Below, piece after piece: positions 1 to 10,326 of a DNA stretch of 10,326 bases. The notes under the pieces are model-generated. The model had not been told where the DNA came from and searched no databases. It was given only the letters and a program-made list of their open reading frames with translations. Numbering within the stretch: position 1 is the stretch's first letter; every line of letters begins with the position of its first letter. Position numbers and translations under genes: made by a program. Origin of the DNA: Candidatus Saccharimonadota bacterium (GTDB lineage: Bacteria > Patescibacteriota > Saccharimonadia > Saccharimonadales > Saccharimonadaceae); contig JAFWEB010000055.1 in NCBI GenBank assembly GCA_017515925.1, positions 1-10,326 on the forward strand, in the 5' to 3' direction.

Positions 1-1
1 A

Positions 2-247
2 CATCAGCGTTTCAAAACTCCAGGCATATACAATGCTTCGCTCTCCCCTTCCCAGATTGCCAAATTTGTCCAGATCCAGCCAAAGGCGAAGGCTATGCTA
101 GATTCAGCCGCACGTTCGCTAAATCTATCAACTAGATCTTATCTAAAAGTCGTCCGCGTGGCCCAAACTATCGCCGATCTTGACGAATCTACAGAGGTAA
201 AATCACCGCATATCTCTGAGGCACTGGCTTTCCGTCAAAAATTCTAA
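2..247 (+). CDS. comM: ComM/YifB-family Mg-chelatase-like AAA+ ATPase, C-terminal fragment
   Basis: Only the last 81 residues and the TAA stop are present; the gene enters from the left edge. They match the C-terminal domain of the ComM/YifB magnesium-chelatase-like family: a helical stretch, then SARSLNLSTRSYLKVVRVAQ, 'TIADL' and the ending 'HISEALAFRQ', where family members typically read '..LSARAYDRILKVARTIADL.....HLAEALQYR'. In known members (established knowledge) ComM is a hexameric helicase that promotes branch migration during natural transformation. The AAA+ core (Walker A and B) would lie outside the window, so activity cannot be judged. The gene is followed by a 21-base gap and a new promoter for infC, so it is probably a separate transcription unit. 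Family call is fairly sure; the exact symbol less so. Confidence 0.8.
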   Translation, partial: HQRFKTPGIYNASLSPSQIAKFVQIQPKAKAMLDSAARSLNLSTRSYLKVVRVAQTIADLDESTEVKSPHISEALAFRQKF

Positions 248-267
248 GATTTTCCCTGTAAAACCCC

Positions 268-296
268 TTGAAATCGTGAGCGGAATTTGATATAAT
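268..296 (+). promoter_or_regulatory. Sigma-70-type promoter for the infC cluster
   Basis: A -35 box TTGAAA (268-273) is separated by exactly 17 bases from a perfect -10 box TATAAT (291-296). The -10 is also preceded by TG-A (288-290), an extended -10. Predicted transcription start is near 303, giving a leader of only about 26 bases before the proposed ATA start of infC. This leaves no room for the long L20-binding leader seen upstream of infC in Bacillus-type operons. Confidence 0.85.
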
Positions 297-328
297 GGAA
301 AAGATAAGGTTAAACGAAAGGATCCCCC

Positions 329-850
329 ATAGGAAACAATAATTCACACACTCGTATCAACGGAGAAATTCGCTATGAGAAGGTGCGTGTGATTGGGTCA
401 AATGGGGAGCAGCTCGGCATCATGAGTAGCCGAGACGCTCAGCTTCTCGCCAGAGATCAAGGTGTAGACCTCGTTGAGATTGCACCAAATGCTGATCCAC
501 CTGTTGTCAAAATCATCGACTGGGGTAAATACCAATACCAGAAGATGAAAGAACAGGCCAAGAATCGCAAAAAAGCCCGTGAAAAACAATCTGAATTAAA
601 ACAGATGAAAATCGGTCTCAAGATTAGCGATAACGACCTTAACATTAAAATCCGTAAGATTCGTGGTTTTATCGAAGATGGCGACCATGTCAAAATCATG
701 ATTGTCTTTCGCGGTCGCGAAATGGCACATAAAGAAATCGGTCAGGAGCTTCTAGATAAGGTCCTAGAACAGATTAGTGACATCGCCGTAGCAGATGGAA
801 AAGCGAATTTTGCTGGACGCAATTTATCCATTGGGGTTCGGAAGAAGTAA
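329..850 (+). CDS. infC: Translation initiation factor IF-3, probable ATA start
   Basis: IF3 binds the 30S subunit, prevents premature 50S joining and checks start codon-anticodon pairing. The fragment VRVIGSNGEQLGIMSSRDAQ, the lysine-rich linker, and a C-terminal domain with 'FRGREMAHKEIGQELL' identify it. The first ATG/GTG/TTG-type start in frame is GTG at 383, but that would cut off 'TRINGEIRYEKVRV', which contains the conserved IF3 N-terminal signature (R-I-N-x-E-I-R). The frame stays open back to a stop at 311-313. The only start-like codon with a ribosome-binding site is ATA at 329, preceded by AAAGGA (317-322) at six bases. From there the protein has 173 residues, normal for IF3. Non-AUG infC starts (AUU in E. 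coli) are the classic basis of IF3 autoregulation. If a tool calls the gene from 383 it is 155 residues and truncated. Confidence 0.93.
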   Translation: MGNNNSHTRINGEIRYEKVRVIGSNGEQLGIMSSRDAQLLARDQGVDLVEIAPNADPPVVKIIDWGKYQYQKMKEQAKNRKKAREKQSELKQMKIGLKISDNDLNIKIRKIRGFIEDGDHVKIMIVFRGREMAHKEIGQELLDKVLEQISDIAVADGKANFAGRNLSIGVRKK

Positions 851-928
851 CTTTAGACTTCCACGGCTCTGGATATGTTCTTTCCCTGTTCACAGTAGTG
901 AACACAAATATTAATTAAACTAAAGGAG
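851..928 (+). promoter_or_regulatory. infC-rpmI intergenic leader with hairpin and possible SD occlusion
   Basis: Directly after the infC stop, CTTTAG (851-856) is complementary to CTAAAG (920-925), which overlaps the rpmI Shine-Dalgarno AAAGGAG (922-928). Inside this potential long-range pair lies a 7-bp hairpin, TGTTCAC-AGTA-GTGAACA (887-904). A ribosome ending infC translation would cover 851-856 and could free the SD, a plausible coupling device. In E. coli, L20 represses rpmI translation through a long-range structure here; similarity to that operator is not visible and is only inferred from position. Confidence 0.4.
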
Positions 929-933
929 TAATT

Positions 934-1128
934 ATGCCGAAATTGAAGACGCATAAAGGTACCGCCAAGCGTATCAAAATTACCGGTTCTGGCAAGCTCG
1001 TCCGTGAACGCGCATACAAGAACCACATCCTAGCCAAAAAATCTAAGGCTCGCAAACGCAATATGAAGACTGCAGCCACGATCAATGGCAAAATTGCAAA
1101 AAACATTAAGACTGCATTAGGAGCTTAG
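934..1128 (+). CDS. rpmI: 50S ribosomal protein L35
   Basis: A 64-residue basic protein beginning '[20 protein letters not shown]', the standard L35 signature, with the central '[14 protein letters not shown]' (family: '.H.L..KS.KRKR.L'). L35 is a small late-assembly component of the large ribosomal subunit. Length is normal (family about 64-66). The ATG is preceded by AAAGGAG (922-928) at a five-base spacing, so the start is secure. It ends in TAG, the only TAG-terminated gene in the window, two bases before the rplT start. It sits in the canonical infC-rpmI-rplT order. Confidence 0.97.
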
Positions 1129-1130
1129 AG

Positions 1131-1478
1131 ATGAGAGTAAAAAGAGGCGTACCTGCACACGCAAAACATAAGAAGATTTTAACTGCAGCCAAGGGCATGC
1201 AACACTACCGCACCCGCAGCTACAGAATGGCAAAACAAGGTGTTATTAAGGCTCTTAGATATAGCTATCGTGATCGCCGTAACAAGAAGCGCGACCTTCG
1301 TGCTCTCTGGATTACCCGCATCAACAACGCTTCCCGCGAGCTTGGTCTTTCCTACTCTCAGCTGATCGCTGGTATGAAAGCAAAGAATATCACCGTCGAC
1401 CGCAAGATCCTTGCTGATCTCGCTGTTAATCAACCAGAAGCTTTCAAGGCTATCGTTAATACAATAAAGGAGAAATAA
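1131..1478 (+). CDS. rplT: 50S ribosomal protein L20
   Basis: 115 residues, close to the usual 117-119. The N-terminus '[20 protein letters not shown]', then '[20 protein letters not shown]', '[20 protein letters not shown]' and '[20 protein letters not shown]' are the diagnostic L20 blocks. L20 binds 23S rRNA early in 50S assembly and in several phyla also represses its own operon. The SD AGGAG (1119-1123) lies inside the end of rpmI, seven bases before ATG, so translation is probably coupled to L35. Two bases separate the stop of rpmI from this start, and one base separates this stop from rpmB. Confidence 0.98.
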
Positions 1479-1479
1479 G

Positions 1480-1671
1480 ATGGCAGTTTGTGAAATTTCC
1501 GGCAAAGGTAAAATGTACGGCCACAACGTATCTTTCTCCCAGAGAAAGACTCGCAAGGTCTTCAAGCCAAACATTCAGAAACGCACTTTGACCGTCAATG
1601 GTCAAAAAGTCCGTGTGAACGTTGCAACTAGCACCCTTCGCACCCTGAAGAAAAAAGGCTTACTCAAGTAA
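1480..1671 (+). CDS. rpmB: 50S ribosomal protein L28
   Basis: 63 residues with the L28 pattern: 'CEISGKGKMYGHNVSFSQRK', 'FKPNIQKRT', and the ending 'VNVATSTLRTLKKKGLL'. L28 is a basic large-subunit protein. Zinc-binding family members have a CxxC pair in 'CEICGKG'; here the second cysteine is serine ('CEISGKG'), so this is probably a zinc-free form, as seen in many bacteria. The SD AAAGGAG (1466-1472) lies at the end of rplT. L28 following rplT is not the classical E. coli arrangement (rpmB-rpmG), so gene order is a lineage trait. A strong terminator follows. Confidence 0.95.
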   Translation: MAVCEISGKGKMYGHNVSFSQRKTRKVFKPNIQKRTLTVNGQKVRVNVATSTLRTLKKKGLLK

Positions 1672-1704
1672 ATCATTACTCTGGCGCCAGCCAGTAATAA
1701 ATCA

Positions 1705-1740
1705 AAAAGAAGTCAGGACATGTGCCTGACTTCTTTTGTT
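1705..1740 (+). terminator. Rho-independent terminator of the infC-rpmB unit, probably bidirectional
   Basis: A perfect 13-bp stem, AAAAGAAGTCAGG (1705-1717) with CCTGACTTCTTTT (1725-1737), and a seven-base loop. The plus strand runs into TTTTGTTT; the minus strand also has a T run because five A's (1704-1708) flank the stem, so it may stop transcription from both sides. A smaller imperfect hairpin (ATTACT 1675-1680 with AGTAAT 1693-1698) precedes it. Confidence 0.9.
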
Positions 1741-1802
1741 TATCAGGTAAAATCGTCTAGATTGGTGATTTCTTTCGTTGAAGCGCGGTTATTGACCGAG
1801 TA

Positions 1803-1833
1803 AAACGAAAAAATCGCCGAGATAGGCGATTTT
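1803..1833 (-). terminator. Rho-independent terminator of rnpB
   Basis: Read on the minus strand, AAAATCGCC (1833-1825) pairs with GGCGATTTT (1818-1810) around a six-base loop, followed by TTTCGTTTTA (1812-1803). It begins seven bases past the predicted end of RNase P RNA. The stretch 1741-1802 between the two facing terminators shows nothing convincing. Confidence 0.85.
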
Positions 1834-1840
1834 AACGATA

Positions 1841-2187
1841 AACAGCTCTCAGTAAGCCGGGTTTTGTCATCTTCAGCCGAAACCTTAGATGGGTAATCAT
1901 CTATCTGGATCCTAGATTGCTCCAGGACTCTAGCGGTGAACGTGCATCCTCGGGTCGAGGTGAATAGCACTCCTTGCAGCCAGTAGGGTTTGCCTCCAGT
2001 GTGCATCGCTACACACCGCTGTGGGCTCTTACCCCACTCTTTTCACCCTTGCTTTCATCATAAGACAAAAGCGGTTTTGTCTCTGTGGTACTTTCCCTAT
2101 CCTTGCGGACGGTCGCCGTTAGCGACTACCGTACCCTGTGCTGCCCGGACTTTCCTCTGCATAGCAGCGATTACCTTTAGAGCTATT
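1841..2187 (-). ncRNA. rnpB: RNase P RNA (bacterial class A)
   Basis: This is the catalytic RNA of RNase P, which trims 5' leaders from pre-tRNAs. On the minus strand the hallmarks appear in order: GAGGAAAGTCCGGGC (about 2157-2143), CACAGGGTACGG, 'CCACAGAGACAAAACCG', 'AAGGGTGAAAAG' then 'GGGGTAAGAGCCC', the L15-type 'GGCAAACCCTACTGG', and ACAAAACCCGGCTTA near the 3' end. The ends pair as P1: AATAGCTCT (2187-2179) with AGAGCTGTT (1849-1841), nine pairs including one G-U, so the RNA spans about 347 nt. Its predicted promoter fits a start near 2185-2187. The usual GGU of the CCA-binding loop reads GGC here. Open frames crossing this region on either strand are not genes. Confidence 0.95.
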
Positions 2188-2191
2188 GTCT

Positions 2192-2200
2192 ATTATACCA
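2192..2200 (-). promoter_or_regulatory. Extended -10 promoter of rnpB
   Basis: The minus strand reads TGG-TATAAT, a perfect -10 (2197-2192) with an extended TG. No good -35 hexamer is seen 16-18 bases upstream. The -10 contains the TAA stop of the upstream RNase H gene (2195-2193), so promoter and coding end are overlaid. Confidence 0.75.
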
Positions 2201-3110
2201 CAAGTTCTGGCGGGAGCTTCTTTTTTCTCTTGAAATGCCCCTCTAGGGCCTTGTTCGCCTCTCCATCTGCCTCAGCATTTTGAGCGCGTTTGACATGAAC
2301 GAATGCCACCGCCTCAAAATTCTCTAACAACTTCTTAATATCGTTATAAATCAGCATCAAATCTTGGTTCTTTACCTGATAAATACCTCTTAGCTGGTTC
2401 ACCATCATCAGATTATCGCTCACAAATCGCACGCGTTTCAAACCTAATTCAGTTGCCTGTTCTATACCCTCTTTCATAGCATAATACTCCGCTACTCTAG
2501 AGGTGGCAAAGCCGATAAACTCACCACCACGTTTAATCTCCTTGCCATCTTCACCTACAATGTAATAGCCAATCGCTGATGGGCCAGGATTGCCCTTGCT
2601 ACCACCATCTACATAAACCGTTGCGCCGTTAAGTGCGCCCCTGTTATCGGTTGGATTTGGAGTCTTAGCTAATTTCTCATAAGTGGCAGTCATGGCAGAA
2701 TGGGCATTTTTGCCATTTAGAATCTCTAATACAGAAATCGCTGCATCATCAAGCGTGAGAGACACCATCTCTTCTGTGGCCATGTATTTGAAAGCCGTAT
2801 ATCTTTCCATTGGTACAATTTTCGTCTCTGGTAGATCTACTTCGTATACGATATATAGATTACCAAGCTGAGAACTACCGGCAATATTCACGAATGTAAT
2901 TACATCTAGGAGTGAAACTTTTGTTACCTCTACACCGAGATATTCGTAAAACGATCGAACAAGTGCCTCTTCGGGCTGTTCACCAAATTTAATCTTGCCA
3001 GTAGGAAGTTCCCAGGTCGGCAATTCTTCGGTGCGGCCAACGGTGCGCTTCATCATCAAAATCTTGTCCCCCTGTCTGACGATTCCGACTACTCTGATTC
3101 TTTGTTTCAT
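2193..3110 (-). CDS. Nudix-like domain fused to RNase HI
   Basis: 305 residues from ATG at 3110. Residues about 5-130 form a Nudix fold. The box keeps G38-x5-E44, R52, E56 and G59 but has serine and tyrosine where the canonical 'RE..EE' glutamates should be (S53, Y57), so hydrolase activity is doubtful. Residues about 162-290 are RNase HI: 'YVDGGSKGNPGPSAIG', with the four catalytic acidic residues D168, E208 (VAEYY), D232 (VSDNL) and D282 (EADGEAN) all present. RNase HI cuts the RNA strand of RNA-DNA hybrids (R-loops, primers). A TTG at 3179 could extend the protein by 23 residues, but ATG 3110 follows AAGGGTGG and begins the Nudix strand, so it is preferred. It lies between its own promoter and rnpB. 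Confidence 0.88.
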   Translation of the reverse strand: MKQRIRVVGIVRQGDKILMMKRTVGRTEELPTWELPTGKIKFGEQPEEALVRSFYEYLGVEVTKVSLLDVITFVNIAGSSQLGNLYIVYEVDLPETKIVPMERYTAFKYMATEEMVSLTLDDAAISVLEILNGKNAHSAMTATYEKLAKTPNPTDNRGALNGATVYVDGGSKGNPGPSAIGYYIVGEDGKEIKRGGEFIGFATSRVAEYYAMKEGIEQATELGLKRVRFVSDNLMMVNQLRGIYQVKNQDLMLIYNDIKKLLENFEAVAFVHVKRAQNAEADGEANKALEGHFKRKKKLPPELVV

Positions 3111-3270
3111 GCCACCCTTGTTTATTCTAAAAAACTTATCAGGTAGCCCTAGGATTATTTTTCCCTGTAGTAAATACAAGGTGGGTAAAATCTTATGCGC
3201 ATTCCCACGGGAATAACGCCACGAAATCCCTAAACATAATTATTCAGGAAAATTATGCTCTCTAGGGCTA
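3111..3270 (-). promoter_or_regulatory. Structured 5' leader of the Nudix-RNase H gene, candidate riboregulator
   Basis: About 159 bases lie between the predicted start and ATG. CTAGGGCTA (3262-3270) and TAGCCCTAG (3144-3152) are a perfect 9-bp inverted repeat bracketing most of the leader. Part of the first arm (3263-3267) can instead pair with CCCTA (3228-3232), stacked beside CATAATT/AATTATG (3235-3241, 3251-3257), so the two folds exclude each other. A further hairpin is ATTCCC/GGGAAT (3201-3214). The SD region (3112-3120) is complementary to 3177-3184 over eight pairs with one bulge. No known riboswitch class is recognised. Confidence 0.45.
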
Positions 3271-3275
3271 ATTCT

Positions 3276-3284
3276 ATTATAGCA
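3276..3284 (-). promoter_or_regulatory. Extended -10 promoter of the Nudix-RNase H gene
   Basis: The minus strand reads TGC-TATAAT (-10 at 3281-3276). A weak TTGGCG lies 19 bases upstream, inside the 3' end of the M50 gene. Predicted start is about 3269. No terminator is seen between the M50 gene and this point, so read-through from the upstream operon is also likely. Confidence 0.6.
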
Positions 3285-3286
3285 TT

Positions 3287-3934
3287 TTACGCCACTGGAA
3301 CGCCAATAATAAAGTAGAAAAACTTGAATAAATTCGTAATTGCTCCGGTCATAAATGTTGAAAGTGCTGATCCAAAGATGACTACCAGAATCATAATCAG
3401 CCAAATACCGCCGGTTCTCTCTATCTGTTCCATCACATTTCTAGCACCATCTGGAGCGATTGCATAGAGTACTCTAGATCCGTCCAGAGGTGGAATAGGG
3501 ATGATATTAAAGACAGCAAAGCCCAGGTTGATCAGCACCATCTGGCGCAAAATATCGCCGATTATTCCTGGATCGTATAAGCCGCCACCGAAATGACCGA
3601 TCAGGAAGAAAATGAATGCTAGTAGAATATTTGTCAGAGGTCCAACAATCGCAACCAGTGCCATTCCCCAAGCACCGCCTTTGAGCCTACGCGAATTGAC
3701 CGGAACCGGCTTGGCACCACCAAAGATTGGACCGCCCATGATATAGAGTGCTAGTGGCATAATAATAGAGGTGATAGGGTCTAGATGTTTGATTGGATTG
3801 AGGGATAATCTCCCCTCTTCCTTAGCGGTAGTATCGCCTAGAGCATAAGCTACTAATCCGTGAGCCAGCTCGTGTAGTATCATAGACACCAAAATAACAC
3901 CTAAGACTACTAGCAATGCTCCCAAATTGATCAT
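3287..3934 (-). CDS. M50-family intramembrane zinc metalloprotease (site-2 protease family)
   Basis: 215 residues, hydrophobic, about five to six membrane segments. HELAH (residues 21-25) is the HExxH zinc motif in the first helix; 'GPLTN' (98-102) and 'NIIPIPPLDGSRVL' (143-156), whose D151 is the third zinc ligand, complete the M50 pattern. There is no PDZ or CBS domain, so it belongs to the short, single-domain group of site-2 proteases. Such enzymes cleave membrane-embedded substrates; the substrate here is unknown. The ATG at 3934 is preceded by GAGGAGGTGG, an excellent SD, and lies 16 bases after the stop of the MBL-like gene, so it is probably the last gene of the thrS operon. Confidence 0.9.
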   Translation of the reverse strand: MINLGALLVVLGVILVSMILHELAHGLVAYALGDTTAKEEGRLSLNPIKHLDPITSIIMPLALYIMGGPIFGGAKPVPVNSRRLKGGAWGMALVAIVGPLTNILLAFIFFLIGHFGGGLYDPGIIGDILRQMVLINLGFAVFNIIPIPPLDGSRVLYAIAPDGARNVMEQIERTGGIWLIMILVVIFGSALSTFMTGAITNLFKFFYFIIGVPVA

Positions 3935-3950
3935 TCCACCTCCTCTAATA

Positions 3951-4463
3951 TTAGTTCAATGCGACAACTTCTAGTGCCATTGGCAAGGAATCTGCGTTTT
4001 TGACCTTAAGTTTCTTCTCTGTCCTTGCGGTGAGCTTTAACTCAGAAACCATACCGTCAATATTACCAGTTGCAACAACTAATTTTGGTTCGATTTCACG
4101 TACAGCACGCACCGATGAAGTACAAAGAATGTCAGATACGCCTAAATCGTCTAAGCCTTGCTCGATATCACCGATAATACCGATGTGAACGCCGCCGACC
4201 TCTACATCATAGATAGTCTTACCAGAGAGAGCTGGAGTCTTGCCATCTGCTTCGCCATCAGCGATGTCATCTGCAGATGAACCCTTGATTGGAGTAGCAA
4301 TACCACGAATGGCAATATCGCCAATCTCAAACTCACCTGGACCTTTGATTGGGCCAACTTCTAGACCTGCATCAACTGTGTAATCAACAAAATTGATTGT
4401 GGCAGACTTATTTTTGGTTGTAATAGTGATTTCTTCTGGTTTTTTACTCTCTAGTTCAAACAT
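3951..4463 (-). CDS. MBL-fold-related protein lacking the metal-binding motif
   Basis: 170 residues, cytoplasmic, no signal peptide or membrane segment. The series 'GPGEFEIGDIAIRGI' (about 41-55), 'TIYDVEVGGVHIGIIGDIEQ' (about 83-102) and 'EPKLVVATGNIDGM' (about 125-138) resembles the central and C-terminal part of a metallo-beta-lactamase-fold family common in Patescibacteria (typically 'GPGEYEI...NTIY.IE.DG..I.HLGD'). The HxHxDH motif and the later zinc histidines are absent; the 'LGD' histidine position reads 'IIGD'. It is therefore probably non-catalytic, or a structural or regulatory relative. Residues 60-80 form an acidic, alanine-rich insert. SD AAGGAGG precedes the ATG. The family link is from pattern recall and should be treated as moderate. 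Confidence 0.6.
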   Translation of the reverse strand: MFELESKKPEEITITTKNKSATINFVDYTVDAGLEVGPIKGPGEFEIGDIAIRGIATPIKGSSADDIADGEADGKTPALSGKTIYDVEVGGVHIGIIGDIEQGLDDLGVSDILCTSSVRAVREIEPKLVVATGNIDGMVSELKLTARTEKKLKVKNADSLPMALEVVALN

Positions 4464-4481
4464 TGTACCTCCTTAGATAGA

Positions 4482-5093
4482 TTAGTATGTTTCTTTGATG
4501 AACCCTTCTGGATCGTAAGTCTCTGTGATATCCATTTCCATGAGCTCAACCAAGAAACGATCTTTGACACTCTTTCTATAAGTGTAATCGCCAGTACTCA
4601 TAATGACATAATTAAGAGGTTTGCCCATCTTTTTCTCAATAACTTCGGCCCAATGGGTGAGTTTCTTGGTCTTATCATCGCCAATAATCAGCATATCAAT
4701 GCCCTCTTCACCTGGAACGCGATTAGTAACGATCAAACCATCAAGGTAATTCTTAACAGGTTTAACATAATCTTCCCAAGAGGTGCGCTTGACTTCTACT
4801 TCCTTAGCATCAGACACTTTAGTAGAGAAAATTTCTGACAAAGCATGGGAAAATGGATGCTTAGGATTGGCTGAATAGTACACTTTATTGTCATAGGTAT
4901 CATTTTTGACGATACCAATACTCTCGAGATTGATCAATTCGCGACGAACAGAATTAATCTGCTCTTCAATCACACGAGTAATCTCACGTACGTAAAAGGA
5001 TTTGTTAGTATCTTCAAAGAAAAGTGCAAGTAATTTGGTCCTAGTTTTAGAACCGAATAATTTTTCTAGTGGAGTTGCGTTTTCTTTAACCAT
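4482..5093 (-). CDS. Winged-helix protein with a degenerate nucleotidyltransferase-like C-terminus
   Basis: 203 residues. Residues about 9-75 form a winged helix: 'LEKLFGSKTRTKLLALFFED' (the common 'LFGS..R..LL..F' start), 'FYVREITRVIEEQINSVRRE' (recognition helix), 'LESIGIVK', then the wing 'NKVYYSANPKHPF'. Residues about 105-200 resemble the MNT-type nucleotidyltransferase domain often fused to such helices in CPR bacteria and archaea, ending in 'EGIDMLIIGD' (130-139). The GSxxRGE..SDxD active site that should precede it is missing ('GLIVTNRVPGEEGIDML'), so only the fold may survive. It is probably a DNA-binding regulator. The start overlaps the last eight bases of miaA and has no clear SD, implying translational coupling. 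Confidence 0.7.
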   Translation of the reverse strand: MVKENATPLEKLFGSKTRTKLLALFFEDTNKSFYVREITRVIEEQINSVRRELINLESIGIVKNDTYDNKVYYSANPKHPFSHALSEIFSTKVSDAKEVEVKRTSWEDYVKPVKNYLDGLIVTNRVPGEEGIDMLIIGDDKTKKLTHWAEVIEKKMGKPLNYVIMSTGDYTYRKSVKDRFLVELMEMDITETYDPEGFIKETY

Positions 5094-5919
5094 CTTGTAT
5101 ACATTTTAGCACGCTTTCGCACACTTTTTCAAGTGGCAACCAAACAATTTTTTTATTTCTTTTGAACCAGGTAATTTGGCGCTTTGCTAGATGCCAATCA
5201 TCCAGGATAAACTGTCTTTTAGCCTCTGTTTCGGTAATATTTCCCTCCATATAATCCCAGGCGAACTGATAGATATTACTTTTCATGGCTTGGCTGCCCC
5301 AACCAAATTTTTTGACCAAGAAATCAGTTTCTTTGTACAGATCTTGAGTAAAAAGATTGTTCGCACGAAGCGTGAGTCGCTCGCGCAATTCTTCTGGACT
5401 CCATTTTATACCAAAAATACAGTATCCGGGTAGCATTTTTTGCCTATCTGAACAAATTTTTTGTTCAATTTGAACATCTGGGGTGTTTTTGACTTTCTCC
5501 CCTGTTTTTCCGATGAAATGGTAGCCATAAACCAGTGCATCTACGTATAATCCGGTGCCACCAACCACCATTGGAACTCTCCCGCGTGAACGAATTTCCT
5601 CAATTTTTTGTTCAGCATAGGCTTTCCAATCAGCCACAGTGAATCTTTCGCCTGGTTCTACTAGATCTATGCCCCAATGTGGAATGCCATCTTGTTCCTC
5701 AACACTTGGTTTGGCTGTACCAATATCCATATATTTATAAATTGCGCGTGAATCAGCTGAAATAATCTCCGCTGCGGGGCCGTCAAAGCCCTTGAATGGT
5801 TCAAAATCCTTCAATTTCTTGGCAATTTCAATCGAAACTCCAGTCTTCCCTGATCCAGTCGGACCAACAATTACTACCACCGGACCAGAGTAGTAATTTT
5901 TGGAGTTAGAATTTGTCAT
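5086..5919 (-). CDS. miaA: tRNA dimethylallyltransferase MiaA
   Basis: 277 residues. MiaA transfers dimethylallyl to N6 of A37 in tRNAs reading codons that start with U. Visible motifs: P-loop GPTGSGKT (19-26), 'ISADSRAIYKYMDIGTAKPS' (53-72) with catalytic D56, 'PHWGIDLVEP' (80-89), 'GGTGLYVDAL' (120-129) and C-terminal 'LAKRQITWFKR'. Two positions differ from the usual text: 'DSRQ' reads DSRA, and 'PHHLID' reads PHWGID. The swivel/insertion domain is short, as in compact genomes. The start has no recognisable SD and follows thrS by 23 bases, suggesting coupling or reinitiation. The product works on tRNA, like neighbouring thrS. Confidence 0.95.
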   Translation of the reverse strand: MTNSNSKNYYSGPVVVIVGPTGSGKTGVSIEIAKKLKDFEPFKGFDGPAAEIISADSRAIYKYMDIGTAKPSVEEQDGIPHWGIDLVEPGERFTVADWKAYAEQKIEEIRSRGRVPMVVGGTGLYVDALVYGYHFIGKTGEKVKNTPDVQIEQKICSDRQKMLPGYCIFGIKWSPEELRERLTLRANNLFTQDLYKETDFLVKKFGWGSQAMKSNIYQFAWDYMEGNITETEAKRQFILDDWHLAKRQITWFKRNKKIVWLPLEKVCESVLKCIQDG

Positions 5920-5942
5920 ATTTTAGAAAAATTTCGTGAAAA

Positions 5943-7730
5943 TTACATTTTCTGAAGATTCTTTGCGAGTGCAGATAGTTTGATCTTCTCTTCTCTCACG
6001 CCGCCTTCAGATTTTTCGTCGTGGATACGAACGCTGACTTCTTTAGATTCGGCATCTTTTGGACCAACAATCATAATGCAAGGGATTTTCATCTCTGTAG
6101 CACGCTTGATTTTCTTGCCGAGTGACTCACTAGAATTATCTACGCTGTAGCGAAGTGGATTATTAGAAATTGGATCGTCTAATACTACTTTTTCTAGCTC
6201 TTTTTTGATGTCTGCGACATAATCGAGCACCTGATCATTGACTGTCAGGATGCGAATCTGCTCTGGTGCACACCAGAATGGGAACCAGCCTGCTGTATGT
6301 TCGATAAATACGCTCATAAAGCGCTCAATTGAGCCAATCAAAGCACAGTGAACCATCACAGGGCGCTTTTTACTGCCGTCTTCTGCGATGTATTCTAGGC
6401 CAAATCTCTCTGGCTGGGCATAGTCTAGCTGTACTGTGGCTAGCTGCCATTCACGATCGAGTGCATCTACAGCCATAAAGTCCATTTTTGGACCATACAT
6501 GGCTGCTTCGCCGATACCGATGAAGTAATCCATCTCGTATTTGTCGGCCATTTTCTTGATAGAATCTTCTGCTTTCTTCCACATTTCTGGAGTGCCAATA
6601 TATCCGTCTCCATCATCACGGAAAGAAAGGCGAAGACGCAATTTCATGCCAACTTTTGCATATAAATCCTTAGCACTTTCGATTAATTCGCCAAAGATAT
6701 CACCAATTTGATCCTCAGTACAGAACACGTGGCTATCATCCTGTGTAATGGCACGTACACGGGACAAACCACCCAACTCGCCTTTGCGCTCGTCACGATA
6801 AACCATAGTTGTTTCTAGATATTTGACTGGAAGTTCCTTATATGAGCGTGGTTGAGAAGCGAAAATCTGTGCGTGATGTGGACAGTTGACTGGCTTCAAT
6901 GCAAGTTCGTCGCCAGATTCGGAACTAGTGAACTTGAGCAGCTCTGGGAATTTGGCGTAGTGGCCGGAAGTCTTATAAAGATCGACTAATGCAATGTGCG
7001 GAATACAAACTTTTTGGTATCCCCTGTCTTCGCGATAGCTCTGAGCAAAGCGATTGAGCAAATCTCTAAGGATTGTGCCGCGTGGGGTGAACAATGGCAA
7101 ACCAGAACCAACTAACGGAGAGTTGCAGAATAGATCTAGCTCCTTGCCAAGCTTTCTGTGATCACGATTTTTGGCTTCTTCTTGGCGTTTTAGGTATGCT
7201 TCTAGCTCTGCTTCGGTCTCGAATGCTACACCATAAATACGAGTGAGCATTTCACGCTTTTCATCGCCTTTCCAATAGGCGCCTGCGACACGAATTAGCT
7301 TGAATGGACCACATTCACTAGTGTTTTTGACATGTGGACCTTTGCAAAGATCGGAAAATAGATCGCCAAGGTCATAAAAAGTAATTTTTTCGTCTTCTGG
7401 AAGTTCTTCAATTAGCTCTTTTTTGAAATCTTGACCTTCTTCAATCGCCCAATTTAATGCTTCTTCTCTACTGACCTCACGCTTAGTCATTTCTAACTTG
7501 CGTTGGATGATGCCGCGCATCTTTTTCTCAATTCGTTTTAGGTCTGATTCGGAAATTTTGGTCTTGCCAAAGTCAATATCGTAATAAAATCCATTATCAA
7601 TTGCTGGACCGATGCCAAATTTAGCATCCGGGTACATACTTTTTACTGCTGCAGCCATTACATGTGACAAATTATGGCGCATTTTCTCAACAAAATCTGC
7701 CTTGCTTACAGAGTCCTCTTTTTTACTCAT
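5943..7730 (-). CDS. thrS: Threonine-tRNA ligase, lacking the TGS domain
   Basis: 595 residues, against about 640 in E. coli. The protein opens directly with the editing domain: H19-x3-H23 ('RHNLSHV') and C129-x3-H133 ('LCKGPHV'), which removes serine mischarged on tRNA-Thr. The N-terminal TGS domain is missing, and no other in-frame extension is visible because the upstream 57 bases are promoter-like. The class II core has motif 1 (TPRGTILRDLL, 215-225), motif 2 (YRDERKGELGGLSRVRAITQ, 311-330), zinc ligands C283, H334 and H461, and motif 3 with R470 (GSIERF). The anticodon-binding domain spans about 490-595. SD AAAGGAAG precedes the ATG. It heads the thrS-miaA-winged helix-MBL-M50 series. 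Confidence 0.97.
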   Translation of the reverse strand: MSKKEDSVSKADFVEKMRHNLSHVMAAAVKSMYPDAKFGIGPAIDNGFYYDIDFGKTKISESDLKRIEKKMRGIIQRKLEMTKREVSREEALNWAIEEGQDFKKELIEELPEDEKITFYDLGDLFSDLCKGPHVKNTSECGPFKLIRVAGAYWKGDEKREMLTRIYGVAFETEAELEAYLKRQEEAKNRDHRKLGKELDLFCNSPLVGSGLPLFTPRGTILRDLLNRFAQSYREDRGYQKVCIPHIALVDLYKTSGHYAKFPELLKFTSSESGDELALKPVNCPHHAQIFASQPRSYKELPVKYLETTMVYRDERKGELGGLSRVRAITQDDSHVFCTEDQIGDIFGELIESAKDLYAKVGMKLRLRLSFRDDGDGYIGTPEMWKKAEDSIKKMADKYEMDYFIGIGEAAMYGPKMDFMAVDALDREWQLATVQLDYAQPERFGLEYIAEDGSKKRPVMVHCALIGSIERFMSVFIEHTAGWFPFWCAPEQIRILTVNDQVLDYVADIKKELEKVVLDDPISNNPLRYSVDNSSESLGKKIKRATEMKIPCIMIVGPKDAESKEVSVRIHDEKSEGGVREEKIKLSALAKNLQKM

Positions 7731-7754
7731 TAAAAAACTTCCTTTCTTTACTTT

Positions 7755-7763
7755 ATTTTATCA
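7755..7763 (-). promoter_or_regulatory. Probable extended -10 promoter of thrS
   Basis: The minus strand reads TGA-TAAAAT (-10 at 7760-7755), predicted start about 7748 and a leader of roughly 17 bases. No good -35 is seen. The gap 7731-7787 is very AT-rich and holds only a weak hairpin (ATCAA/TTGAT, 7771-7786), so read-through from the upstream gene is likely. No T-box or other aminoacyl-tRNA-sensing leader fits in this space. Confidence 0.45.
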
Positions 7764-7787
7764 TATTTTAATCAATTACTGTTGATT

Positions 7788-9413
7788 TTAAGCTATTGAA
7801 TCCAAAAATTCCTGTGATCCTGGGTGTGGAGTGATGCCGCGGCGCTTCAAATCCTTTTCCTGCTCTTCTAAGAAGAAAACCATAGCCTTGTTTAGGTCTT
7901 TATAAGCCATTTGTTTTAATGGAATCCACTCATCCGGTAGATCATTTCGTCCAATTTTGTCAGAAATAAAGATAATTTTATCAAAATCAGTCATGTCTTT
8001 ACGCGGAATCGTGTGATATTCAATAGATTGGCAAATTTCATCGTCCAAATCAAACCATTCTTTAGCTACTATAGCGCCAATTTCAGAATGACGATAGTTT
8101 TTGGCACCATCATTTAGCAATTCTGGATCCAAATTATACTTTTCTACGAAATATTTTTCCTGCTCTGGCTTGAGACGCTTGGCAATATCGTGTGCAAGCC
8201 CCGCAATGTAGGCTTTTTCGTAGTCTAAACCATAGAAAAGCGCCAAATCCTTGGCCTGATTTGCTACAAGAAGGCTATGAACATAGCGTTTTTCGTCCAC
8301 AGAATCGTGCAATTTCTCCCTAATTTTATCTTCTAGGTCGCTTGCAAACATTGGCTCGTCGATTTTCACGCTTTCCTTCTCAGAATCTAGCTCTGTCACT
8401 ACGCCAAATGGCAAAATCGTGCGTGGCATGCCGTGTCCAAAGTTCATATTATAGGCAATTGGCAGCTGATATTTGTCGGAAATAGTGCAAAGAATTGCTT
8501 TATATTCGTCGTAATACTTTTCATCCATTGGTTTGCCGACCAAAATGCCTTTGATATTGTCAAAAACACCAAATTTTTCAATTGCGTCAATCATTTTTTG
8601 ATATTTTTTCGGTTCTGGCTGGACTTCACTGGTTTCTAGAACCAAAATTTTGCCAGTCCAGTCTTCTGGATTTGGGAAAATTGGAAATTCATCATAGATT
8701 TTTTCCATTTCGGCTGGAAAACGCTCGTGCGCGATAGCATCACACAAAATTTCTATGCATCCGCCGAGCAATTCGCCTTTGATTTTTGCCTTTGGACCAA
8801 GAAATTCGATGCCTTTTTGCTCTTCTACCTCTGTTAGAGGCGTTCCGACTTGATCCGGACCAAATTCTGAGCGAGATTTATACCAAATTGGGCTAGATTT
8901 TAACAAAATACCCCTGTTATTGCTGAACAAATTTTTTATACAATTTAGCGTATACGGCGGGATTTCTGGGCCAAGTTCTGCCACGTCTGGAAGTAGTGCT
9001 GGGCCGTAATATGTGGTGAGGCCTAGCTTATTTAGCATTAAGTGGTTGGTAGTAGTGTCGGAAAAGCCCATAAAAATCTTTGGATGAGAGAGTAAAAGTG
9101 TCTGGAATTCTTCATTCATGAGATATGGCAATGTACGGAAGGTGTCTTCCCCACCAATTGCACACCAAATCATAGAAATTGAGTCGTCTTGGAAGGCTTT
9201 TTTCAGATCCTCGGCGCGTGCTTCGGGATGTTTTTCTAGGTATTCTATGCCCTTTCTCGCATTTGGCATATATTCATACTCTAAGCCTAGCTCACCTAGC
9301 CTTTTTTCTAATAATTCTTCTTCATGTTTGATAAATGGCTCACCCAGAAGACCTTTGGATAGCGATACAATCGCAACTTTATCACCTTTTTTTAACATTT
9401 TTGGTTTTACCAT
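7788..9413 (-). CDS. S66 (MccF/LD-carboxypeptidase) peptidase fused to YqeK-type HD hydrolase
   Basis: 541 residues in two parts. Residues about 5-350 are peptidase family S66: 'WCAIGGEDTFRTLPYLM' (83-99), nucleophile S118 in 'GFSDTT', E260 in 'LETSE' and H327 in 'NFGHGMPR' form the Ser-Glu-His triad. The 'GGED' text and length favour the MccF-like branch over the shorter LdcA. Residues about 360-541 match YqeK, an HD-domain Ap4A hydrolase: H379 ('RYVHS'), H408-D409 ('LAHDIAK'), H442 ('RHSEIGA'), H467 ('YHT'), D485 and the ending 'KRRGITPHPGS'. All key residues of both halves are present, so both may work. SD AGGAG lies five bases before ATG. No signal peptide is seen, so it is cytoplasmic. 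Next gene downstream: thrS. Confidence 0.9.
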   Translation of the reverse strand: MVKPKMLKKGDKVAIVSLSKGLLGEPFIKHEEELLEKRLGELGLEYEYMPNARKGIEYLEKHPEARAEDLKKAFQDDSISMIWCAIGGEDTFRTLPYLMNEEFQTLLLSHPKIFMGFSDTTTNHLMLNKLGLTTYYGPALLPDVAELGPEIPPYTLNCIKNLFSNNRGILLKSSPIWYKSRSEFGPDQVGTPLTEVEEQKGIEFLGPKAKIKGELLGGCIEILCDAIAHERFPAEMEKIYDEFPIFPNPEDWTGKILVLETSEVQPEPKKYQKMIDAIEKFGVFDNIKGILVGKPMDEKYYDEYKAILCTISDKYQLPIAYNMNFGHGMPRTILPFGVVTELDSEKESVKIDEPMFASDLEDKIREKLHDSVDEKRYVHSLLVANQAKDLALFYGLDYEKAYIAGLAHDIAKRLKPEQEKYFVEKYNLDPELLNDGAKNYRHSEIGAIVAKEWFDLDDEICQSIEYHTIPRKDMTDFDKIIFISDKIGRNDLPDEWIPLKQMAYKDLNKAMVFFLEEQEKDLKRRGITPHPGSQEFLDSIA

Positions 9414-9440
9414 ACACTCTCCTAACTTTTTCCTACTCTA

Positions 9441-9449
9441 ATTATAGCA
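9441..9449 (-). promoter_or_regulatory. Extended -10 promoter of the S66-YqeK gene
   Basis: The minus strand reads TGC-TATAAT (-10 at 9446-9441), with predicted start near 9434 and a 20-base leader that includes the SD. No good -35 is present; its upstream region overlaps the divergent tRNA-Val promoter. Confidence 0.65.
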
Positions 9450-9450
9450 C

Positions 9451-9479
9451 TTTTACTCTGGGAGAAAGTGTGATATAAT
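9451..9479 (+). promoter_or_regulatory. Promoter of tRNA-Val
   Basis: -10 TATAAT (9474-9479) with extended TG-A (9471-9473), and a weak -35 TTTTAC (9451-9456) at 17 bases. Predicted start is about 9486, five bases before the mature tRNA. It is interleaved with the divergent promoter of the S66-YqeK gene. Confidence 0.75.
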
Positions 9480-9490
9480 AAAAAGCACCC

Positions 9491-9567
9491 GGGTTGTTAG
9501 CTCAGTTGGCTAGAGCGCCTCGTTTACACCGAGGAGGTCGGGGGTTCAAGCCCCTCACAACCCACCA
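9491..9567 (+). tRNA. tRNA-Val(UAC)
   Basis: A 77-nt cloverleaf including the encoded CCA. Acceptor stem GGGTTGT/ACAACCC (seven pairs), D stem GCTC/GAGC, anticodon stem CCTCG/CGAGG with loop TTTACAC (anticodon TAC, valine GTA and related codons), five-base variable loop AGGTC, and T stem GGGGG/CCCTC with loop TTCAAGC. Discriminator base is A. No defects are visible. It is a single tRNA gene with its own promoter; the hairpin starting at the final A of CCA probably terminates it. Confidence 0.97.
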
Positions 9568-9614
9568 GTAATGGAATAAAAATAGGCCGAAGGCCTTATT
9601 TTTATTCTATTACT
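9567..9614 (+). terminator. Long hairpin directly after tRNA-Val, probable terminator
   Basis: A left arm at 9567-9588 (begins AGTAAT, ends AGGCC) pairs with 9592-9614 (begins GGCC, ends ATTACT) over about 22 pairs, with one G-U, one bulged base and a GAA loop. The right arm carries TTATTTTTATT, so it can act as a terminator. The stem is much longer than usual, and its first base is the last base of the tRNA, so it could also influence 3' processing. Confidence 0.65.
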
Positions 9615-9629
9615 ACATGAGATTATTGA

Positions 9630-9756
9630 GAGTGGGCGCGAACCCCCGCAGGGGGTGCGCGTTCAGTAGGAGCCGAGTAAAAATCCCAAATGGATTTGGG
9701 ATTTTTTGAGGCGACGCCCTGAAGGTTCCGGTGCGTGGCAACGGAACCGCCCACTC
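9630..9756. repeat. Compound palindromic block with nested hairpins
   Basis: Outer arms GAGTGGGCG (9630-9638) and CGCCCACTC (9748-9756) are a perfect 9-bp inverted repeat. Inside, in order: a hairpin of CCCCC/GGGGG type (9636-9664); TTCAG (9662-9666), complementary to CTGAA (9719-9723); a perfect 13-bp central hairpin (9679-9706); and GGTTCCG/CGGAACC (9724-9730, 9742-9748) with an inner TGC/GCA. The layout is roughly symmetric, so a similar branched fold can form on either strand. No reading frame of note is present. It could be a non-coding RNA, a MITE-like element or a run of terminators between convergent genes. Confidence 0.5.
9679..9707. terminator. Bidirectional terminator-like central hairpin
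   Basis: AAAAATCCCAAAT (9679-9691) and ATTTGGGATTTTT (9694-9706) form a perfect 13-bp stem; the plus strand ends in a T6 run (9702-9707) and the minus strand in T5. It is suitably placed to end both the tRNA transcript and the convergent minus-strand gene. The two-base apical loop implies that the inner A-T pairs open. Confidence 0.6.
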
Positions 9757-9764
9757 ACAACCCA
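9749..9764 (+). repeat. Second copy of the tRNA-Val 3' end (att-like)
   Basis: GCCCACTCACAACCCA repeats the tRNA 3' end at 9550-9564 (GCCCCTCACAACCCA) with one inserted A. The shared 11-base core CTCACAACCCA at 9554-9564 and 9754-9764 is exactly 200 bases apart. Partial copies of a tRNA 3' end are typical of integration sites for tyrosine-integrase elements, but no integrase is present in this window, and a short repeat may arise otherwise. Confidence 0.4.
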
Positions 9765-9784
9765 AGACGCCGCCCCTCGCGTTT

Positions 9785-10326
9785 TTACCAATAAGTAATT
9801 TCTAGATCAGAATACCTACCGCCCTTTGGCCAACTTGTGCAATATGCCTCAAACGACCAGGTTCCACCAACTTTTATTCCTCCTACGCTTGCGAAGCAGT
9901 CTCCAGTCTTAGAATTGGCAGTATCGTACATTGAAAAACTAATCTGTAAATAACTAACATCTTTACCAGTATTATTTATAATTCTCCCCTTGATCGTACC
10001 CCAGTCATAATTAGGGTACCCAGCTGAATCATCGATAGTGTAGCAAAACTTTGCGTTTTTACGACAAGACCCATCATCTTCTAGCCTTGAGTACAGATAT
10101 GATTTTGATTCCTCTTCTTTCGCGGCCTTCTCCTCTTCTTCCCTCTTTCTAGCTTCTTCTTTTTCTTTCTCTTGACGAGCTTTTTCTTCTTCTTTTCTTT
10201 GCTCTTCTCTCTCCCTTTCTTCTTTGTTCTTATTTTCTTTCTCTACCCATTGTTCATGGTATTTTTCAATAATATCAATATCATTTTGTGAAAAAGAATA
10301 GTGAATTTTTACATTTTTTGCTTTTA
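9785..10326 (-). CDS. Coiled-coil protein with C-terminal FxLYD-like domain, N-terminus outside window
   Basis: The last 179 residues plus TAA are visible; the start lies beyond the right edge. After 'NDIDIIEKYHEQWVEKENKN' comes about 40 residues of nearly pure E/K/R/Q (a charged helix or coiled coil), then a beta-rich domain: 'WGTIKGRIINNTGKDVSYLQ', 'ISFSMYD', 'GIKVGGTWSFEAYC'. This matches the FxLYD pattern ('..G.V.N.t......v...lYD......G...F'), found in extracytoplasmic and lipoprotein-type proteins. Four cysteines occur in the C-terminal domain (CRKNAKFC, GDCF, AYC), compatible with disulfides outside the cytoplasm. A signal peptide or membrane anchor would be in the missing part. Function unknown; an envelope role is inferred. 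Confidence 0.75.
   Translation of the reverse strand, partial: KAKNVKIHYSFSQNDIDIIEKYHEQWVEKENKNKEEREREEQRKEEEKARQEKEKEEARKREEEEKAAKEEESKSYLYSRLEDDGSCRKNAKFCYTIDDSAGYPNYDWGTIKGRIINNTGKDVSYLQISFSMYDTANSKTGDCFASVGGIKVGGTWSFEAYCTSWPKGGRYSDLEITYW

Follow-up and report, generated by a model that had tools for sequence, protein, structure and literature searches.

A rare fusion of an MccF-like S66 peptidase with a YqeK-type phosphohydrolase in Candidatus Saccharimonadota

The window analyzed here is a stretch of 10,326 nucleotides from a Candidatus Saccharimonadota bacterium (contig JAFWEB010000055.1 of assembly GCA_017515925.1, positions 1 to 10,326). On its minus strand, a single unbroken open reading frame (ORF; 7788–9413, ATG start, 541 amino acids) joins a peptidase of the MccF clade of family S66 to an HD domain of the YqeK type. 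This fusion is real, rare, and well formed, and is built of two known families. No description of it was found in the open-licence PMC literature, in line with the initial annotation of this DNA, which knew of none. As to function, we see about an even chance that the product is a two-headed hydrolase acting on adenylated compounds. The MccF-clade serine peptidase half would most likely cleave the amide linkage that joins a nucleotide to an acyl group (an amino acid or a peptide), and its altered pocket suggests that this acyl group is probably neither aspartate nor glutamate. The YqeK-type dimetal phosphohydrolase half, in turn, would most likely split diadenosine tetraphosphate (Ap4A) and related dinucleotides into nucleoside diphosphates. 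Both substrates, and any joint role of the two halves, are what we infer from the evidence below.

Architecture, distribution and descent of the fusion

The two halves are readily delimited. The peptidase half (residues 1–356; 8346–9413, minus strand) matches the Pfam families Peptidase_S66 (residues 13–137, 96.6 bits) and Peptidase_S66C (residues 212–342, 78.4 bits), while the second half (residues 362–541; 7791–8330, minus strand) matches HD (residues 376–487, 58.0 bits), all above cut-off. The NCBIfam model for YqeK, TIGR00488, covers residues 369–523 with 105 bits against a cut-off of 70.15. By sequence, the top solved relatives are 4e94 for residues 13–351 (335 bits) and 8jja for residues 362–535 (93 bits). 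An AlphaFold2 model of the whole protein, built from 47 sequences, has a mean predicted local distance difference test score (pLDDT) of 94.4, a predicted template modeling score (pTM) of 0.91, and zero residues with a pLDDT below 70. The GC contents of the S66 half (40.6%) and the HD half (38.9%), set against that of the window (42.3%), give no clear sign of recent transfer.

Searches for the S66 plus HD (YqeK) architecture, which the initial annotation had proposed as a check, recovered it elsewhere. A protein search, relying like its companions on shared 5-residue words, returned 3879 proteins with E values up to 0.001; among the best 120 of these, judged by their listed domains, 6 combine S66 with HD and 114 carry S66 alone. 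The six clusters (P0001–P0006) have the same domain order as the window's protein, with full-length identities of 67–98%. Another genome, G364, carries the fusion as one ORF whose protein is 99% identical to P0004. The shared order in six clusters and the single ORF in a second genome exclude an assembly artefact. When the HD part was searched against proteins 298–947 amino acids long, the same six fusions came back and no others; a further search with this part by itself gave 19 matches, including a piece of a fusion (P0134; 183 amino acids from a 757-base contig, S66C plus HD).

Among whole genomes, in samples that overlap, the fusion is present in 2 of 392 from the order, 2 of 174 from the genus, and 2 of 394 from the family; of 153 genomes sampled across the phylum, the window's own is the sole bearer. 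Within the genus, S66 stands alone in 7 of the 174 genomes and weak HD-only matches occur in 2. TIGR00488 has matches with E values up to 0.001 in 16 of the 392 order genomes and passes its cut-off in three, namely G166 and both fusion genomes. G548 has a standalone HD protein as well, a weaker one. ApaH gave weak matches in 2 of 80 genomes and none over its strict cut-off, in a search that did not extend to NUDIX-type Ap4A hydrolases. In 14 named control genomes, the models were found (over cut-off) in 7 (5) for TIGR00488, 6 (1) for ApaH, 12 (11) for ThiF, and 5 (5) for AnmK. Judged by these matches, YqeK and ApaH appear otherwise nearly absent from the lineage. The window's assembly spans 516 kb in 90 contigs and is 65.7% complete, and the bearers of the fusion are a few ultra-small, probably host-dependent bacteria.

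In a quick tree of the S66 part, all seven fusion rows group together as a single clade, with a Shimodaira–Hasegawa approximate likelihood ratio test (SH-aLRT) support of 98, and the fusion apparently had a single origin. The S66-only genes found in the genus occupy at least three other places in this tree, one group lying beside an Erysipelotrichaceae gene, a scatter that suggests repeated transfer. The S66 protein of G321, a genome of the same genus, is identical over 355 columns to P0011, which is attributed to Candidatus Saccharibacteria, and we take the lineage to be Saccharibacteria (Patescibacteria). A standalone YqeK-like protein (P0121; 188 amino acids, own start) shares 77% identity with the HD half of the fusion and groups with the fused halves at 100/100 in the HD tree, and may be either a split-off or a pre-fusion form. 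P0002 is placed differently by the HD and S66 trees. Comparison of the two fusion genomes gives a nonsynonymous divergence of 0.20 by NG86 and 0.12 by YN00, with synonymous divergence saturated, and both halves look to be under constraint.

Catalytic sites of the two halves

The YqeK site is complete. Its metal ligands, assigned from their invariance among the fusions and from YqeK ligand spacing, are His379 (codon at 8277–8279), His408 and Asp409 of the HD motif (8187–8192), the second-metal ligands His442 (8088–8090) and His467 (8013–8015), and Asp485 (7959–7961), all on the minus strand. Together with R376, which stands three residues before the first histidine, and K412, these residues are invariant in all seven fusion rows. 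The spacing of the six ligands agrees to within one residue with that of Bacillus halodurans YqeK (H21, H50, D51, H83, H109, and D127, as given in an excerpt of PMC8177086). Likewise retained, as K412, is the counterpart of Streptococcus pyogenes YqeK Lys62, whose loss lowered activity according to an excerpt of PMC11857287.

YqeK, the symmetrical Ap4A hydrolase of TIGR00488, here follows an S66 peptidase rather than being alone or behind NadD. The NadD-YqeK fusion of mycoplasmas offers a precedent, since there too YqeK is joined to a nucleotide-handling enzyme, although the partner is NadD rather than S66; in an excerpt of PMC9426524, YqeK in this setting is given a proofreading role and acts also on analogs of nicotinic acid adenine dinucleotide (NaAD) and on 8-oxo-GTP. 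The corresponding model, NCBIfam PRK07152, matches residues 365–527 of our fusion, under its cut-off. A different partnership was seen in G602 (L121:643–2049), where an HD domain lies N-terminal to RmlD (295 bits) and the gene adjoins ORFs that by eye look RmlA- and RmlB-like. This case, from another genome of the phylum, cautions that YqeK has more than one kind of partner, such that the mere fact of fusion says little for a common substrate. Taken with the standalone YqeK and the many S66-only relatives, the YqeK-RmlD fusion also indicates that the coupling of S66 to YqeK is not obligatory. The initial annotation had looked to separate genes for the two domains as a sign against its reading, and in part such genes were found, but the fusion itself stands. 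The mycoplasma precedent lends some appeal to metabolite-damage control, whereby the two halves would remove aminoacyl-adenylates that have leaked, and wrong dinucleotides, both products of endogenous enzymes. We think this unlikely, as a gene present in only 2 of 174 genomes of the genus fits an optional function better than a housekeeping one.

The peptidase half is equally intact. Its nucleophile Ser118 (9060–9062, minus strand), with Glu260 (8634–8636) and His327 (8433–8435), pairs in alignment with S118, E243, and H311 of Escherichia coli MccF, the latter two of which we take to be the rest of that enzyme's triad. The letters are identical in 32 of 32 aligned rows, a set from which one distant row (L022) was left out as not the right ORF, and are invariant in all seven fusion rows. 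The catalytic residues of both halves are thus in place, as originally proposed. The E. coli reference is an S66 protein encoded in a plasmid operon (L107) alongside GNAT, methyltransferase, MFS, and ThiF; its record lacks the name MccF, but its S118, W186, N220, and K247 fit the titles of structures 3tly and 3tlz. The former title names N220 and K247 of MccF as active-site mutants, and the latter a mutation of Trp186.

It is around the triad that the fusion departs from E. coli MccF. At N220, R246 (included as the neighbor of K247), and K247, the window's protein has E221, E263, and V264; among the fusions, E or D replaces N220 and R246, and V, A, or E replaces K247. The combination of N, R, and K occurs solely in E. 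coli MccF among the 32 rows: aligned S66 relatives other than E. coli MccF and LdcA have E or D at the first two positions, and none has the lysine. The W186 position has F184, aromatic like its counterparts in the MccF clade but not the tryptophan of E. coli MccF. With these counterparts acidic or lost, microcin C, an aspartyl-adenylate, is a doubtful substrate, and another aminoacyl-nucleotide appears likelier from the aligned residues. For comparison, an excerpt of PMC3817062 limits efficient cleavage by E. coli MccF to aspartyl and glutamyl adenylates.

Sequence and fold comparisons nonetheless place this half as MccF-like rather than LdcA-like, bearing out the initial assignment. Members of the MccF clade (E. 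coli MccF, Streptococcus pneumoniae 4e94, Ba3275, and AgnC5 of plasmid pAgK84) share its triad and fold, and differ from the fusion in lacking the additional C-terminal HD domain. They also share with it a segment, at about residues 182–205 of the fusion, that is missing from E. coli LdcA. That the protein is instead a cell-wall recycling enzyme resembling LdcA, the murein tetrapeptide carboxypeptidase, with an accidental HD tail, is quite improbable: the S66 family, whose Pfam name is LD-carboxypeptidase, and the triad are common to both, but MccF-like structures match better, outscoring LdcA by some 9 to 19 Z units, PRK11253, the model for LdcA, gives 38 bits where its cut-off is 378, and AnmK, a single recycling gene, was found in none of nine genomes searched, with the G000 row weakened by two-thirds completeness.

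Surroundings of the fusion and of its S66-only relatives

The next gene downstream is thrS (5943–7730, minus strand; TIGR00418, 613.6 bits), separated by 57 bp in which no minus-strand terminator-like site was found. On the other flank lies a tRNA-Val (tac; 9491–9567, plus strand). In G364, the fusion likewise lies between tRNA-Val and thrS, on the same strand as thrS and 79 bp before it, in a collinear block. The thrS genes of the two genomes are 94% identical and the whole block is common to both, so the two occurrences are not independent. Promoter-like sites in 7650–9620 numbered 5, against 5.1 expected from shuffles. Beyond thrS, the minus strand continues with miaA, a gene weakly similar to HTH regulators (below the model's threshold), a protein that matched no family, an M50 peptidase, and a NUDIX–RNase H protein. 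This last is one ORF (2193–3179) with NUDIX and RNase H-like domains, and is present in G364 too. A class A RNase P RNA lies at 1838–2186 (minus strand, 242 bits).

A thrS search of 30 genomes found no full gene in three (G424, G473, and G446). At 26 further thrS loci in the genus, miaA is present throughout, tRNA-Val lies on the 5′ side in 10, and the remaining neighbors vary, implying that the spot between tRNA-Val and thrS accepts different genes. S66 or HD genes were found at none of these loci, whose 5′ side was covered for 1.1–1.5 kb in 24, coverage in the other two reaching 172 and 421 bases. Of the synteny with thrS proposed in the initial annotation, the position directly upstream thus holds in both fusion genomes but does not extend to the rest of the genus, and we set it aside as functional evidence, for which the tie is weak. 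Cotranscription with thrS is possible; the neighborhood itself we take to be mainly positional.

The S66-only relatives do not share a setting either. Eleven loci differ in context (twice between dnaG- and rpoD-like genes, once beside a pyrG-like gene, and others, with names assigned by eye), leading us to reject a conserved context. No thrS was found in these 11 stretches, although some contigs end close by and that of G446 may well lie near thrS. Family scans covered four neighbors in the G446 stretch (L055), three of them also with NCBIfam, and single neighbors in L054, L058, and L059. In G446 (C6; L055:3950–9282), a 54% identical S66-only relative sits in a tight same-strand run of a permease (PF03547), an AsnRS/AsnA-like class II core of which only the catalytic domain was matched, the S66 gene, an orphan with faint HisRS similarity, a methyltransferase, and, at the contig end, a GNAT-like ORF recognized by eye. 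The S66 gene overlaps the AsnRS/AsnA-like gene. Among the matches listed, the orphan recurs in 1 of 295 family genomes, weakly (E 8e-4) and within an 842-residue frame. In gene content this run recalls the E. coli plasmid operon. ThiF passes its cut-off in G446 and G298 of nine genomes searched; neither is a fusion genome, and a ThiF-type (MccB-like) companion of the fusion was accordingly rejected. The G446 run is a possible synthetase-paralogue biosynthesis cluster. Its contig also bears a tRNA-Val (tac) and ends 2.3 kb past the S66 gene, and its permease resembles, by eye, a type found 5′ of thrS at 4 of the 26 other loci; as the assembly lacks a full-length thrS, that gene could lie just beyond the contig end. 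Anti-phage defense was discarded, PADLOC giving weak matches only (Cas3 HD and HEC-01B).

These surroundings bear on the proposal of the initial annotation that the fusion is a dual guard of tRNA charging, coexpressed with thrS and clearing both adenylated synthetase inhibitors and Ap4A around ThrRS. The short same-strand gaps to thrS and the synthetase-like partner in G446 speak for such a guard. We nevertheless regard it as very doubtful given the 26 loci and the shared descent of the two fusion genomes, and because the Asp/Glu preference of E. coli MccF (PMC3817062, in excerpt) would lead one to expect no link to threonine.

Possible two-headed hydrolysis of adenylated compounds

Several points weigh against a two-headed hydrolase of adenylated compounds. 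The counterparts of N220, R246, and K247 are not kept, so that even a nucleotide-linked substrate is a supposition. The title of 4jvo describes Bacillus anthracis MccF crystallized with alanyl sulfamoyl adenosine, and the E. coli enzyme therefore does not settle the acyl preference of the clade. The activity of NadD-fused YqeK on NaAD analogs and 8-oxo-GTP means that Ap4A may not be the main substrate, and P0121, within or beside the fusion clade, indicates that the HD half is able to exist alone. In addition, the apparent scarcity of ApaH depends on a cut-off passed in 1 of 14 control genomes.

A fuller version of the two-headed hydrolase can be put forward tentatively, as a possibility short of probable. 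The MccF-clade half, with its charge-changed pocket, would clear non-acidic aminoacyl- or peptidyl-nucleotide inhibitors, perhaps from neighbors or hosts, while the YqeK half would clear the Ap4A of stalled synthetases. In essence, this would be dedicated clearing of adenylates in host-dependent bacteria. The genus at large holds further S66 genes of this sort, among them the G446 gene in its possible synthetase-paralogue cluster.

The fusion brings to notice an S66 subclade, shared with S. pneumoniae 4e94, whose pocket is unlike that of E. coli MccF. If both activities prove real, evolution would have joined the hydrolysis of aminoacyl-nucleotides and of Ap4A in one protein, in a lineage otherwise nearly without YqeK.
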